This document shows positions 42,743-56,494 of a DNA stretch of 64,000 nt, piece after piece. This stretch comes from a virus: positions 42,788 through 106,787 of the IMG/VR virus record IMGVR_UViG_3300010334_000034, one strand, 5' to 3'. Within the stretch, counting starts at the first letter, position 1. The number at the start of each line of letters is the position of its first letter. The notes beneath the pieces were generated by a model. That model was not told the origin of the DNA. It was given only the letters and a program-made list of their open reading frames with translations, and made no database searches. Made by a program: the position numbers and the translations under genes.

Positions 42743-43216
42743 ATGGAATCAAATAATGAGATAGATGCAATTGTTGAGCAATTGCGAGCTGATTCAGTAC
42801 CTTCTAATAATCAAGTAGTTCCATCAGAAACTCCTCTTCCGGAGGTTAATGATGATAACATGAATGAATATGTTATTAAGAAGGCTACAGAAAATATAGA
42901 AGCTAGTTTAGATGCTGTTAATTCTTTAAAGGATATAGTCATTACCGGACAAAATCCACAAGAGATAGCAGCTTTAGCTTCTTTAATTAATGCAACTACC
43001 AAAGCTTTAGATTCTTTGAATAAAATTAATATGCAAAATAAGCAGATTAAAAATAATATAGAAATTAAACAGATGGAAGTATCTGCTGCCAAGAATATAA
43101 AACCTCCTACCACTAATGTGCTCATAGCAACTAGGGATGAAATAATGTCAAAATTATATGACAAAAATAAGAGGGATAAAGTAGAGTTAATACAGGATTC
43201 AGATCCTGACTTGTGA
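42743..43216 (+). CDS. Terminase small subunit, gp16-like
   Basis: A 157-residue protein that fits the T4 gp16 small-terminase plan. It has an acidic disordered N-terminus, then a helical hairpin at about 48-110 (VIKKATENIEASLDAVNSL; IAALASLINATTKALDSLNK), then a short C-terminal motif PTTNVLIATRDEIMSKLYDK. That motif parallels the T4 gp16 end (NATVFMGSPTELMDEI, from memory). gp16 recognises DNA and regulates the gp17 motor during packaging. The large subunit is not in the window. The identification rests on pattern and not on a search. Its TGA overlaps the GTG of the next small frame. Confidence 0.6.
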   Translation: MESNNEIDAIVEQLRADSVPSNNQVVPSETPLPEVNDDNMNEYVIKKATENIEASLDAVNSLKDIVITGQNPQEIAALASLINATTKALDSLNKINMQNKQIKNNIEIKQMEVSAAKNIKPPTTNVLIATRDEIMSKLYDKNKRDKVELIQDSDPDL

Positions 43217-52711: not shown

Positions 52712-53095
52712 TTATTTGTCCATAAATGCTGCTTTCTGAGCTGCATCCATATTTCCTATTGTTTTATTAAAATATTCCCAAAATTTTTCTGGTGGTTTAG
52801 ATGGTACAACTGACACTACTTCACAATTAGTTACAGGCACCATTCTCCAATCTTGGAAAAAAATATCCCATACAGTTAAAAGACCTTTTGAAACAGCATT
52901 ATAAGCTGGACTCTGTGTTGGTTGTTTAAAATTTAAAATTTCTCTTCCTAATTTTGAATCTAATATTCCACGATCAAGTGTTGCTAACATTCTTCTAGTG
53001 GCTGGTCTACCTGCTACTTTCATTCGTCGTACAAATTTAATTTCTACGACGTTTGATTCTAACAGACTTTTTAAACCACCAAGAGAAAGCTTCAC
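52712..53095 (-). CDS. WYL_2/DUF2693-like protein
   Basis: A 127-residue protein. The pattern VVEIKFVRRMKVAGRPATRR with MLATL, then LLTVWDIFFQDWRMVPV, resembles the phage WYL_2 (DUF2693) family. In that family a basic strand and a V-W-D...W-R motif form a small beta domain thought to relate to WYL domains, which can bind nucleic acid or ligands. No activity is known to me. It overlaps the co-chaperonin-like gene by four bases. Confidence 0.5.
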   Translation of the reverse strand: MKLSLGGLKSLLESNVVEIKFVRRMKVAGRPATRRMLATLDRGILDSKLGREILNFKQPTQSPAYNAVSKGLLTVWDIFFQDWRMVPVTNCEVVSVVPSKPPEKFWEYFNKTIGNMDAAQKAAFMDK

Positions 53096-53490
53096 TTAGT
53101 TTTCTTGCTCTTTTTAGGTTCGCAAACACCAAAGATGCGAGCTTCGTTCAAGAAAACAATGTGTTTCAGATCATTTATACTTGAAACCTGAATACCCTTA
53201 TCATTAGGGAATACTACATTATCTCCTTCCTTTACAGTTTTACAATTAGGACCAGCGAGGACTACTCTACCGATTCTCCAAACATGGTTGACGGCATTGA
53301 TAGGTAACCAAATACCATTGCGATTTACTTCTGTACCGTCTTCATTAAGGTCTATGTATTGAACCATAATGATATCATCCATGACTTTGGTTAAAGTCCA
53401 ATCATCTAATTCTAAAGAATTACTTTTGTAATTTTCTATTTGAACTAATCCGTGGATTCTATCTTCTTGTTGAGGTCTAGCAATTGTCAT
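53092..53490 (-). CDS. GroES/gp31-like co-chaperonin
   Basis: A 132-residue protein with the GroES plan. A first strand is DDIIMVQYID, and a mobile-loop-like stretch (LNEDGTEVNRNGIWLPI) carries the hydrophobic tripeptide that would contact GroEL. Then come VWRIGRVVLAGPN, the turn VKEGDNVVFPNDKG, and the last strands HIVFLNEARIFGVCEP. In T4 gp31 replaces GroES so that the host chaperonin can fold the large capsid protein. That is the likely role here. It is longer than GroES (97) through a 25-residue N-terminal extension and a Lys-rich tail. Confidence 0.72.
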   Translation of the reverse strand: MTIARPQQEDRIHGLVQIENYKSNSLELDDWTLTKVMDDIIMVQYIDLNEDGTEVNRNGIWLPINAVNHVWRIGRVVLAGPNCKTVKEGDNVVFPNDKGIQVSSINDLKHIVFLNEARIFGVCEPKKSKKTK

Positions 53491-53499
53491 ATATTAAAG

Positions 53500-53892
53500 T
53501 TATTTAAGTTTTCCATTCAATTCTGCAAGGGTTTTATTGTAGAATTCTATTTCTTTAGTTGAACATTCCATAGAAGTTGCTGTATCTGTAACATCTTCAT
53601 TATTATATTCCTTACCTGATTTCTTAATATAAGAAATCTTTTTAATGGTTTTAGGTAATACTAAATAAAAGAATTTATATATAGAATGATTGTCTTTAGC
53701 TAATTCTGTTTTATTGATCCATCTATTAGAAGTGGCATTTACAATTTGAGCTACAGAAGGGTCTGTCATAGATAGCCATCTATTGATAAGGAAAGATCCT
53801 GGTAAATTTAAATCTGTAGGAAGCTTTCCCTTCTTTTTGAGAATCCAATCTAATAGAGGAAATAATCCATCTATAGTATTTTTCTTAACCAT
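53500..53892 (-). CDS. Clamp loader small subunit, gp62-like
   Basis: About 130 residues. It resembles the small clamp-loader subunits of cyanophage-type T4 relatives: FLINRWLSMTDPSVAQIVNA followed by a KDNHSIYKFFYLVLPKTIKK block with FYLVLPK-type ending, then charged helices. It would form the gp44-gp62 complex with the ATPase at 41257-42192. I use the ATG at 53892 (TAATG overlap with the upstream stop); a longer form reads into the upstream gene. The assignment rests on remembered sequence pattern, not on a search. Confidence 0.6.
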   Translation of the reverse strand: MVKKNTIDGLFPLLDWILKKKGKLPTDLNLPGSFLINRWLSMTDPSVAQIVNATSNRWINKTELAKDNHSIYKFFYLVLPKTIKKISYIKKSGKEYNNEDVTDTATSMECSTKEIEFYNKTLAELNGKLK

Positions 53893-54464
53893 TAAATGAT
53901 TACCTTTGTAGTAGCAACAAAACAATCTTTAATAGTCTCTTGAAAAATTGCCTTAATTCTATTCGTAAGATAAGAAGCATTTGCATCATCCAACAAAAGA
54001 GAAAAGGCAAAAGAAGGAGCTTTAGGACCAGCTTTTATATTCAAGCCTAGATGACCAATGGCTACATTACCATCAATAACCTTAGTAATGCTAACACTAG
54101 CTTTTCCATATTCCTCATCTCCGGGTTTACGGATCATAATATCATCTCCATCTACTTTAACTTCAAATTTACCGTAATATCCGTTGGCTAATTCATCTCC
54201 AATATAACGTGCAAAGAGTCTTTGAAAGAAGACTGCACCAATAGGACAAATATTTGGAATCTCCCAACAGAAATTTAAAGCATCTTCTGAATAGATATAA
54301 TCATTATTTAATTTGTCTTCTAGATCAATTAAATTATCTGTAACATCCATGTTGCCGCGGAATGCAATAATAACACCAAGAGGATCATAATCCTTCTTAA
54401 AGTATTCATAACCAAATCTCTTGTGAATCAAATCACCATTATAATCTTGTTTAAAATAACTCAT
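53892..54464 (-). CDS. DUF366-like protein
   Basis: A 190-residue protein matching the DUF366 family, known mainly from archaea and some bacteria. Diagnostic blocks are VIIAFRGNMDVTDN (31-44), LIDLEDKLNNDYIYSEDALN (45-64), FFQRLFARYIGDEL, and SVSITKVIDGNVAIGHLGLN with IKAGPKAP. The family has no function that I can state with certainty. It heads the 3' part of a tightly packed set with an amidotransferase, a glycosyltransferase and QueC, three bases from its neighbour, so a link to 7-deazaguanine chemistry is a reasonable inference. The family call itself is fairly sure. Confidence 0.68.
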   Translation of the reverse strand: MSYFKQDYNGDLIHKRFGYEYFKKDYDPLGVIIAFRGNMDVTDNLIDLEDKLNNDYIYSEDALNFCWEIPNICPIGAVFFQRLFARYIGDELANGYYGKFEVKVDGDDIMIRKPGDEEYGKASVSITKVIDGNVAIGHLGLNIKAGPKAPSFAFSLLLDDANASYLTNRIKAIFQETIKDCFVATTKVII

Positions 54465-54467
54465 GTC

Positions 54468-55124
54468 TTATATAATAAAATACTTCTGTCTCTTATTCAA
54501 CCTGTTATTCTCATTTATATCAACAAATGAGATTTCATTAAATTCTTTTGTATATATAGCTCCTTGTGGCATTAAATTTTTATGTTCTTCGTCATTAACA
54601 GAAGAAAAAGAAGTCTTTTGATCATTCCAATAAACCGTATTATCACTTCTTGAAACAAAGGTGACTTTTTCATTTACATCATATAACCAAATACCGTAAG
54701 TTCCGTCTATTTCAAGCAACGTCAATTCAAATGCTCTTAGCTTATTATTATTTCTTTTAACATAATAATCATAAAGATAAGGTATCCATTGACTATCTAC
54801 ATCAAATTTTGTTCTATATTCATTTTCTAATTCTAAAGTATTAGAAATAATTCCGTTATGTGCTGCAATAGCAACGCCATATGAGAAAGGATGGCATCCT
54901 ACTAATCCCTTTCCATTTTCATCAGTAGTAGGTGCTCTGTTGTGGCCAAGATAATAATTTTTCTGAGCTATAGGATAATAAGATATCTCTTCTGAAGTTT
55001 TCTTTATCTCATATTCATCAATATCTGTTAATAAAAAACCAGTGCTATAACTTCCTCTAGATTGGTTTAATTTGTAAAGCCGATAAAATTCTGCGTAATC
55101 TAAATTTCCATATATTCCACACAT
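54468..55124 (-). CDS. Class II glutamine amidotransferase (Ntn hydrolase)
   Basis: A 218-residue stand-alone glutaminase domain. The nucleophile is Cys2 (MCGIYGN), exposed after Met removal. Supporting residues are Arg23 and the STG in SRGSYSTG, the GHNRAPT motif (60-66) and HPFSYGVAIAAHNGII (78-93). Such domains free ammonia from glutamine for a partner enzyme. None is fused here, so the partner is probably encoded nearby; QueC two genes away is the natural candidate because archaeal archaeosine synthases fuse exactly these two domains. It shares the operon with no gap to the glycosyltransferase. Confidence 0.85.
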   Translation of the reverse strand: MCGIYGNLDYAEFYRLYKLNQSRGSYSTGFLLTDIDEYEIKKTSEEISYYPIAQKNYYLGHNRAPTTDENGKGLVGCHPFSYGVAIAAHNGIISNTLELENEYRTKFDVDSQWIPYLYDYYVKRNNNKLRAFELTLLEIDGTYGIWLYDVNEKVTFVSRSDNTVYWNDQKTSFSSVNDEEHKNLMPQGAIYTKEFNEISFVDINENNRLNKRQKYFII

Positions 55125-55808
55125 TTATTGATTATACTTTAAGTTGAATCTAGCGGCACTAGAATTCCACTCTGGAGTATTCATACTGTCTCCTAAACCA
55201 AAGTGAACTACTTTAATAGGTGCTACACCCATTTTTAATTTATTATTATTAGCTCTCAAACAAAATGAAATGTCATAATGATGAAAATCAAAATCTTCAT
55301 CAAATGTAGTGTTGGTAGATAATGCTTTATCTACATCAACTGCTATAAAAAGACCATCTAATACAAGAGCTCTCGAATCTGTAGGTCCGAAAACCGTGGT
55401 CCATGTTTTACCTTCATAAGCATGTGCCACTTCACCTACTATATCTTCTTTATTAGACATTAAATGCCAAGCAGGAGGACGAGATCTGTCTATTTTTTTA
55501 GACCCGGCTAATCCTACTATGTCATATTTTTCAAAAGCTATATCTAATTTTTCTTGCCAAAAAAGATCTTCAATTAATACATCATCATGTATGAAGATAA
55601 TTTTTTTGCCTTTATGGTCTTCTGTAAAAAATTTGTTATAAACCTTTGGAAGACCTTCTTTGTTACTATAAACAATTGTATAATTTTTATAAGCAAATTT
55701 GTCTAAAAATAAATTAAATTGACTTTTCTCAAATTTATATTGAGAAAGAGGTGTAGCACAAACAAAGTGATAATGATTTACAGGACTTGGCAATTGTAAT
55801 TTTTCCAT
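55125..55808 (-). CDS. Family 2-like glycosyltransferase
   Basis: A 227-residue protein resembling the Glyco_tranf_2_5 family. It has HFVCATPLSQYKFEKSQ at the start, IIFIHDDVLIEDLFWQEKL (70-88) with the Asp pair of a metal-nucleotide site, YDIVGLAGSKKIDRSRPPAW, LDGLFIAVDV (150-159), and FDEDFDFHHYDISFCLRANN (169-188). It would transfer a sugar from a nucleotide sugar. The acceptor is unknown: it may be a modified base in phage DNA, given its position between the amidotransferase and QueC, or a virion or cell-surface molecule. The start overlaps the end of queC by 31 bases. Confidence 0.78.
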   Translation of the reverse strand: MEKLQLPSPVNHYHFVCATPLSQYKFEKSQFNLFLDKFAYKNYTIVYSNKEGLPKVYNKFFTEDHKGKKIIFIHDDVLIEDLFWQEKLDIAFEKYDIVGLAGSKKIDRSRPPAWHLMSNKEDIVGEVAHAYEGKTWTTVFGPTDSRALVLDGLFIAVDVDKALSTNTTFDEDFDFHHYDISFCLRANNNKLKMGVAPIKVVHFGLGDSMNTPEWNSSAARFNLKYNQ

Positions 55809-56494
55809 GGGATTTTATCTGATATTACATATTCTTTAGGATCAATATATCCAGCTTCTAAAAACCCTTGAATGCGTGAAGCACAAGACGAACAAGTGCC
55901 ACAAGATATTTCTTCTCCTTTGTAACACGTATGTGTATTTTTAAAATCTACACCGTTTGCTATTCCATCTTTAATAATATCAGCTTTAGAAAAGGTAATA
56001 TAAGGAGCTACTATTTCAATCTGGTGTTCTCTATTAAGAGAAATGGTCTGGTTAATATTTTTTAAGAAATCTAATGAACAATCCCAATGACCACTATGAG
56101 TGTCTACTTCCGCTGCACCATAATAAACCTTGTCCGCTCCTGCTGATTCTGCAGCTGCTGTGGCAATAGATAAAAACATCATATTCCTGTTAGGGACATA
56201 TGTTGGTGGTTGAGCATGACCTGCTATATCTTTAATGTTGGGAATTTCTTTATTGTAATCTAATAAAGCCGATGAAGATGCTATATCCTTAAAGAATGAT
56301 ATATCTAATACCTTGTGAGGTATATTTAATTTAATACAATTATCTATGGCTCTTTCTATTTCTATAGAATGTCTTTGACCATAGTTAAAGATTAAGGCTA
56401 ATGTATCTGATTCTTTATTAATTCTATACAATAAACAGGTAGAATCTAGTCCACCACTATAAATTACAATTGATTTAGGTTTTTTGACATCCAT
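55778..56494 (-). CDS. queC: 7-cyano-7-deazaguanine synthase QueC
   Basis: A 238-residue QueC, the ATP-dependent enzyme that turns 7-carboxy-7-deazaguanine into preQ0 using ammonia. It has the PP-loop SGGLDSTCLLY (13-23), NYGQRHSIEIERA (38-50), PTYVPNRNMMFLSIATAAAE (97-116) and the substrate block GAAEVDTHSGHWDCSLDFLK. Four zinc-binding Cys are at 190, 198, 201 and 204. Length and motifs are complete. It is the first gene of the DUF366-amidotransferase-glycosyltransferase set. Phage QueC usually serves 7-deazaguanine DNA modification, less often host tRNA queuosine. Confidence 0.92.
   Translation of the reverse strand: MDVKKPKSIVIYSGGLDSTCLLYRINKESDTLALIFNYGQRHSIEIERAIDNCIKLNIPHKVLDISFFKDIASSSALLDYNKEIPNIKDIAGHAQPPTYVPNRNMMFLSIATAAAESAGADKVYYGAAEVDTHSGHWDCSLDFLKNINQTISLNREHQIEIVAPYITFSKADIIKDGIANGVDFKNTHTCYKGEEISCGTCSSCASRIQGFLEAGYIDPKEYVISDKIPWKNYNCQVL

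Follow-up and report, generated by a model that had tools for sequence, protein, structure and literature searches.

The window analyzed here is a 64,000-nucleotide stretch of the IMG/VR record IMGVR_UViG_3300010334_000034, covering positions 42788 to 106787 of this 106,787-bp partial phage record; we also read the remainder of the record. The window carries a head-to-tail block of four minus-strand genes (53892-56494) that encode, in this order, a 7-cyano-7-deazaguanine synthase (QueC), a glycosyltransferase (GT), a stand-alone class II glutaminase (GAT), and a protein of the DUF366 family (Table 1). A preliminary description of this DNA, made without database searches, had read the block as a cassette for 7-deazaguanine modification of phage DNA. 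We consider it likely that a phage pathway makes a 7-deazaguanine and places it in the phage's own DNA, and that the block is its QueC end. The evidence for such a pathway is good for the clade, and the pathway is likely in the window phage too.

The exact coordinates, the small gaps and overlaps, and the four kinds of gene reported earlier were all borne out, and the Pfam matches of the four genes exceed their family cutoffs. QueC and GT overlap by 31 bp, GAT abuts GT, and DUF366 begins 3 bp past GAT. The order QueC-GT-GAT-DUF366 recurs in 10 other IMG/VR loci, with GT identity falling to about 60%, and the block is therefore not a chance arrangement. Three other contigs carry near-identical intact copies of all four genes.

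Table 1. Coordinates of the four block genes and two neighboring genes
Feature	Length (aa)	Position	Strand	Pfam match (E value)	Context
QueC, 7-cyano-7-deazaguanine synthase	238	55778-56494	-	PF06508 (1.5e-57)	
GT, GT-A/GT2-like glycosyltransferase (Glyco_tranf_2_5)	227	55125-55808	-	PF13712 (3.9e-11)	
GAT, stand-alone class II glutaminase, Cys2	218	54468-55124	-	GATase_6 PF13522 (3.4e-7)	
DUF366 protein	190	53892-54464	-	PF04017 (5.5e-20)	
orf141, no assigned function	141	53500-53925	-		Downstream of DUF366; in 79/80 DUF366 loci
GroES-like cochaperonin		53092-53490		PF00166	Synteny kept with and without deazaguanine genes

The window QueC scored 176.8 bits against the NCBIfam model TIGR00364 (equivalog cutoff, 150.3 bits). 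It keeps the motifs SGGLDS, YGQRHSIE, and VPNRN and the four zinc cysteines, spaced as C(x)7CxxCxxC, against a canonical signature of SGGxDS, YxQxHxxE, VPxRN, YPDC, and C(x)8CxxCxxC (PMC13329287). GAT begins with Met-Cys and retains the catalytic positions of class II enzymes; a set of 15 homologues shares its Cys2, HPF, HNG, and Asp110. The two proteins are encoded by separate open reading frames and not as an archaeosine-type Gat-QueC fusion, in agreement with the unfused Cys2 glutaminase described before. GAT is predicted to supply ammonia.

Pathway genes in large relatives

Six large relatives of 126 to 230 kb (G004, G005, G008, G010, G021, and G030) each encode FolE1 or FolE2 together with QueD, QueE, QueC, GAT, GT, DUF366, and DpdA, as found with profiles built from the pathway families and run on whole records; some of these profiles include sequences of the same records, so that presence is partly by construction, while absences are unaffected. 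The complete set is present in the closest of them, G004, whose DUF366 protein is 84% identical to that of the window, and the partial record G022 has QueE, QueC, GAT, GT, DUF366, and DpdA. Pfam searches among 20 records detected QueC in 16 and QueD in 14, with FolE2 (PF02649) in G004, G005, G008, and G010 and FolE1 in G012, G013, G015, G016, and G030. Because the upstream enzymes are all encoded in the large relatives, along with a DpdA-type transglycosylase, we assign three of the block genes (QueC, GAT, and DUF366) to a phage DNA 7-deazaguanine pathway, which upholds the preliminary description on this point. QueF was present in G010, G015, and G030 and was not found in the window's subclade; we dropped the idea that GAT is a plain QueF substitute, since G010 and G030 carry both. 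G005 also has a second QueD-like gene (133267-133815, minus strand) besides the queD near dpdA.

Four syntenic sister genomes of 195 to 226 kb (G042 to G045) had none of FolE, QueD, QueE, QueC, GAT, DUF366, and DpdA, and a Pfam search for QueC gave no match in any of 10 such sister records. Since these genomes lack both DUF366 and GAT and keep GT, the first two go with 7-deazaguanine. In a tree of five structural and replication proteins, G042, G043, and G045 fell on the window's side, apart from the pathway-bearing G010 and G030, with the exact branch beside G005 poorly supported (support, 38). The simplest reading of this all-or-none presence of the pathway genes is a coordinated loss in the sister phages.

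A DpdA-type gene was found in eight pathway-bearing relatives. The candidate in the window's subclade is a 286-aa protein encoded about 3 kb from queD (88216-89076 in G005) and belongs to phrog_19058, a family with no annotated function. The first 50 listed PDB matches of its structural model (pLDDT, 91) were all tRNA-guanine transglycosylases (TGTs), with E values of about 1e-8, and its best named relatives are the Flavobacterium phage immuto "DNA guanine transglycosylase" (48.5% identity) and a Campylobacter phage CP220 protein (45.6% identity). This CP220/immuto group may correspond to the DpdA3 group of a 2023 paper, which would be marked by relatedness to the CP220 transglycosylase and by full replacement of guanine. 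Neighbors at 80 loci of the candidate include QueF (39), QueE (20), QueD (19), FolE (12), and QueC (6). We read the 286-aa protein as this group's DpdA. A search with nt-1 or pf16 DpdA as the phmmer query gave no match in the relatives. The Pfam tRNA TGT model PF01702 detected no transglycosylase in the 20 records, yet it also misses known phage DpdAs; we therefore discarded this negative and used the family profile instead. High dADG modification has been reported for Campylobacter phages without a then-recognized DpdA, as cited in PMC6884629.

The same enzymes could serve a phage that boosts queuosine in the tRNA of its host and leaves its own DNA unmodified. The tRNA pathway shares FolE2, QueD, QueE, and QueC (and QueF), bacterial DUF366 sits by queC, and Hutinet (2019) raised the tRNA-queuosine idea for phages that lack DpdA. 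However, the TGT-fold protein is encoded by every pathway-bearing large relative, and its closest named matches are phage proteins, one of them annotated as acting on DNA; the tRNA TGT model, for all its blindness to known phage DpdAs, matched nothing in these records. We regard the tRNA explanation as very unlikely.

A formyltransferase-like gene (LHGYLRI..NGHP) lies just after the DpdA-like gene at two loci (L208:8807-9376 and L224:8786-9331) and one gene further at another (L202:9806-10348); it may correspond to a preQ1 formyltransferase reported in 2023. Cui et al. (2023) are said to have described a carboxy-deazaguanine decarboxylase (DpdL), a formyltransferase (DpdN), and a methyltransferase (DpdM).

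Proposed pathway and points against it

In the DNA modification pathway that we propose, FolE2 would open GTP, and QueD and QueE would then lead to 7-carboxy-7-deazaguanine. QueC would turn this compound into its amide, nitrile, or amidine form, using ammonia supplied by the neighboring GAT. The DpdA-type transglycosylase would swap guanine in DNA for the 7-deazaguanine, which may act as a shield against restriction, and DUF366 might help QueC or act on the 7-substituent by activating or transferring an acyl group. If this is true, the known phage DNA deazaguanine enzymes extend to a large uncultured group of aquatic phages, with the window's subclade using FolE2.

Several results weigh against this proposal. 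HWDC replaces YPDC in the window QueC, and because the Y131A substitution makes Escherichia coli QueC inactive (PMC13329287), the formation of preQ0 by the window enzyme is not certain. G020 has the full pathway set minus GAT and GT, which makes GAT dispensable. For DUF366, comparing its profile by hhalign with the E. coli sequences of LipB and BirA, each taken singly, gave no significant match (E of about 0.3 to 0.4). Finally, whole-record searches found none of FolE, QueD, QueE, QueF, and DpdA on the phage's own 106,787-bp record.

The altered motif is a trait of the group: all the window-clade phage QueCs examined are without YPDC, and most have x-W-D-C/G/T. Defense systems use QueC-family enzymes for protein conjugation, and the change in YPDC might reflect a QueC repurposed in this way, like QatC or Cap9, with the block forming a counterdefense or toxin-like system. 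This explanation is extremely improbable, given that the window QueC, which passes the TIGR00364 cutoff, scored only 20.8 bits against the QatC model NF041925 (cutoff, 280) and that QueC strictly co-occurs with QueD, QueE, FolE, and DpdA. The CxxCxxC zinc cysteines are lost from the QueCs of G009, G010, G012, G015, and G016 (loci L329, L133, L325, L326, and L327), and these phages retain other pathway genes where the record is long enough.

The preliminary description had rightly found no DpdA, FolE, QueD, or QueE in the window, and the search that it recommended for their genes turned up none on the rest of the record and recovered them in the large relatives. The large relatives found via DUF366 are 177 to 230 kb, so that about half of the window phage genome is unseen and the absence of upstream genes from its own record means little; the first reading missed the rest of the pathway because the record is only a 106.8-kb part of a phage. 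The absence would also fit a block that is a remnant, with its upstream genes lost as in the sister group, and whole-pathway loss has probably occurred in nearby phages. However, the four block genes are intact and near-identical in the three other contigs, the sister-phage loss took QueC, GAT, and DUF366 as well, and the record is about half a genome. We hold a remnant to be highly improbable and expect that the window phage would encode the missing genes in its unseen half.

DUF366 and the glycosyltransferase

DUF366, which the preliminary description named without explanation, has the strongest new evidence within the block, and its linkage is the most useful new result. The window protein scored 72.1 bits against PF04017 (gathering cutoff, 29.9) over residues 6 to 188 of 190. 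In the whole-record profiles, phage DUF366 comes and goes with the deazaguanine pathway genes. In bacteria, queC is the neighbor of DUF366 in 54 of the 63 loci (L240 to L302); the two genes mostly touch or overlap, with DUF366 following. These loci belong mostly to Gastranaerophilales, with single cases in Bdellovibrionales and Deltaproteobacteria, and an Armatimonadetes DUF366 locus has queE as a neighbor. In the three bacterial QueCs beside DUF366 that we inspected, TFPDN or TFSDN stands where YPDC would be expected. A first DUF366 profile scan of cellular genomes gave no match and a rerun with a bacterial-like copy as the query gave matches; the only named control genomes with DUF366 were those of M. 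jannaschii and M. acetivorans.

DUF366 is probably an accessory enzyme of 7-deazaguanine metabolism; we call the step accessory because the DpdA-bearing records G023 to G029 have no DUF366. We rejected the idea that DUF366 replaces FolE: the cell genomes with DUF366 lack FolE1, but 10 of 11 have FolE2, and five phage records carry DUF366 together with FolE1. One GenBank entry, "Microcystis phage MaAM05" (L085, MW495066.1 104450-128929; also L240 and L243), has secD, secF, glyS, fabI, and a DUF366 99 to 100% identical to that of Vampirovibrio, and by its gene content this stretch looks like bacterial chromosome rather than phage.

The DUF366 model (pLDDT, 91) has as its best structural match 2ddz from Pyrococcus horikoshii (TM, 0.75 to 0.77), a structure available since 2007, and the profile match to the 2ddz protein had an E value of 5.8e-18. 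The next Foldseek matches were biotin/lipoate protein ligases (1wnl, 3rir, and others; probability 1.00, E of 3e-5 to 9e-4). The model and 2ddz link DUF366 to this superfamily at the level of fold only. The DUF366 alignment has an invariant K121 in GKASVSI and a GHxGINI motif, which by our own reading resemble the catalytic lysine region of these ligases. We infer from the ligase-like fold and the invariant lysine that DUF366 may activate or transfer an acyl group or assist QueC, and our suggestion of acyl or adenylyl transfer at the 7-substituent is a speculative one. We found no function for any DUF366 member in the literature, with the Cui et al. (2023) enzyme list lying outside that search. 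A more far-reaching reading, which we consider less likely than not, makes DUF366 a new 7-deazaguanine enzyme that hundreds of aquatic phages share with bacteria and archaea. It would activate or acylate the 7-substituent, or carry out part of the QueC reaction itself, and these phages would then have an undescribed DNA base that may bear a sugar. The adjacency to queC in bacteria and the joint gain and loss with phage deazaguanine genes give DUF366 a pathway and a direct test.

The preliminary description also suggested a glycosylated deazaguanine, in which GT would add a sugar to an amidated 7-deazaguanine in phage DNA. The catalytic-type motifs of GT are intact (HDDV) or conserved (WH, DGLF, and FHHYD), the start of GT lies inside the end of GAT with QueC nearby in the divergent pathway-bearing G012, G015, G016, and G030, a single GNAT gene separates the two in G010, and G020 lacks both. 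The sister phages that lack the whole pathway, G042 to G045, nevertheless retain a GT about 60 to 67% identical to that of the window, at the same place between primase and orf141, and GT therefore needs no deazaguanine there. In addition, among the 79 closest GT loci, 69 show GT without QueC, GAT, or DUF366 as a neighbor, and no sugar-nucleotide synthesis gene turned up in the block, although none was searched for. The suggestion of a glycosylated base was thus not supported, GT as a committed deazaguanine glycosylase is weakened by these four large phages, and GT looks separable and is probably not required to make the deazaguanine. GT does adjoin GAT in distant relatives, but we consider it unlikely that it transfers a sugar to the modified base.

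The GNAT acetyltransferase-like gene of G010 (107502-107975, minus strand; L133:7502-7975) lies between a GAT fragment and GT. In the sister subclade (L018 to L070), the region upstream of DUF366 contains an island of sugar-nucleotide and glycosyltransferase-like genes. The synteny comparison also placed orf141 in the pathway-less sister phages; it seems to be a syntenic scaffold gene, present with and without the pathway.

Comparison with known systems

The split of glutaminase and QueC into two genes, which the preliminary description pointed out, is by sequence homology already present in the sequenced isolates nt-1 and pf16. ORF392 of nt-1 and gp77 of pf16 are GATs directly after QueC, and they are homologous to each other, to the GATs of the relatives, and to that of the window (phrog_12378). 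Small amounts of dPreQ0, dADG, and dG+ are listed for nt-1 DNA (PMC6884629, Table 2), and the consulted parts of that paper ascribe the nt-1 dG+ to an ArcS and do not mention the nt-1 GAT.

Like the dG+ pathway of Enterobacteria phage 9g and JenK1, the proposed pathway would combine FolE, QueD, QueE, a glutaminase of the same class with QueC, and a DNA transglycosylase. Unlike in 9g and JenK1, which have a Gat-QueC fusion, GAT and QueC are separate here, and GAT is more closely related to that of nt-1/pf16 than to the domain in the fusion. Further differences are a DpdA from a different subfamily, FolE2 in place of FolE1 in the window's subclade, and the extra DUF366 gene. Vibrio phage nt-1 and Pseudomonas phage pf16 share the stand-alone GAT of the same family directly after QueC, and the window QueC is about 43% identical to that of nt-1/KVP40; however, their transglycosylase is of the nt-1/pf16 type (phrog_10773), and they have no DUF366 or GT match. 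Flavobacterium phage immuto and the Campylobacter phage CP220 group, whose guanine carries heavy dADG modification, have a transglycosylase of the same family as the candidate DpdA, but their records have no DUF366 or GT match. The 2ddz protein of P. horikoshii belongs to the same DUF366 family as the window protein, and in the window's relatives this family is tied to 7-deazaguanine genes.

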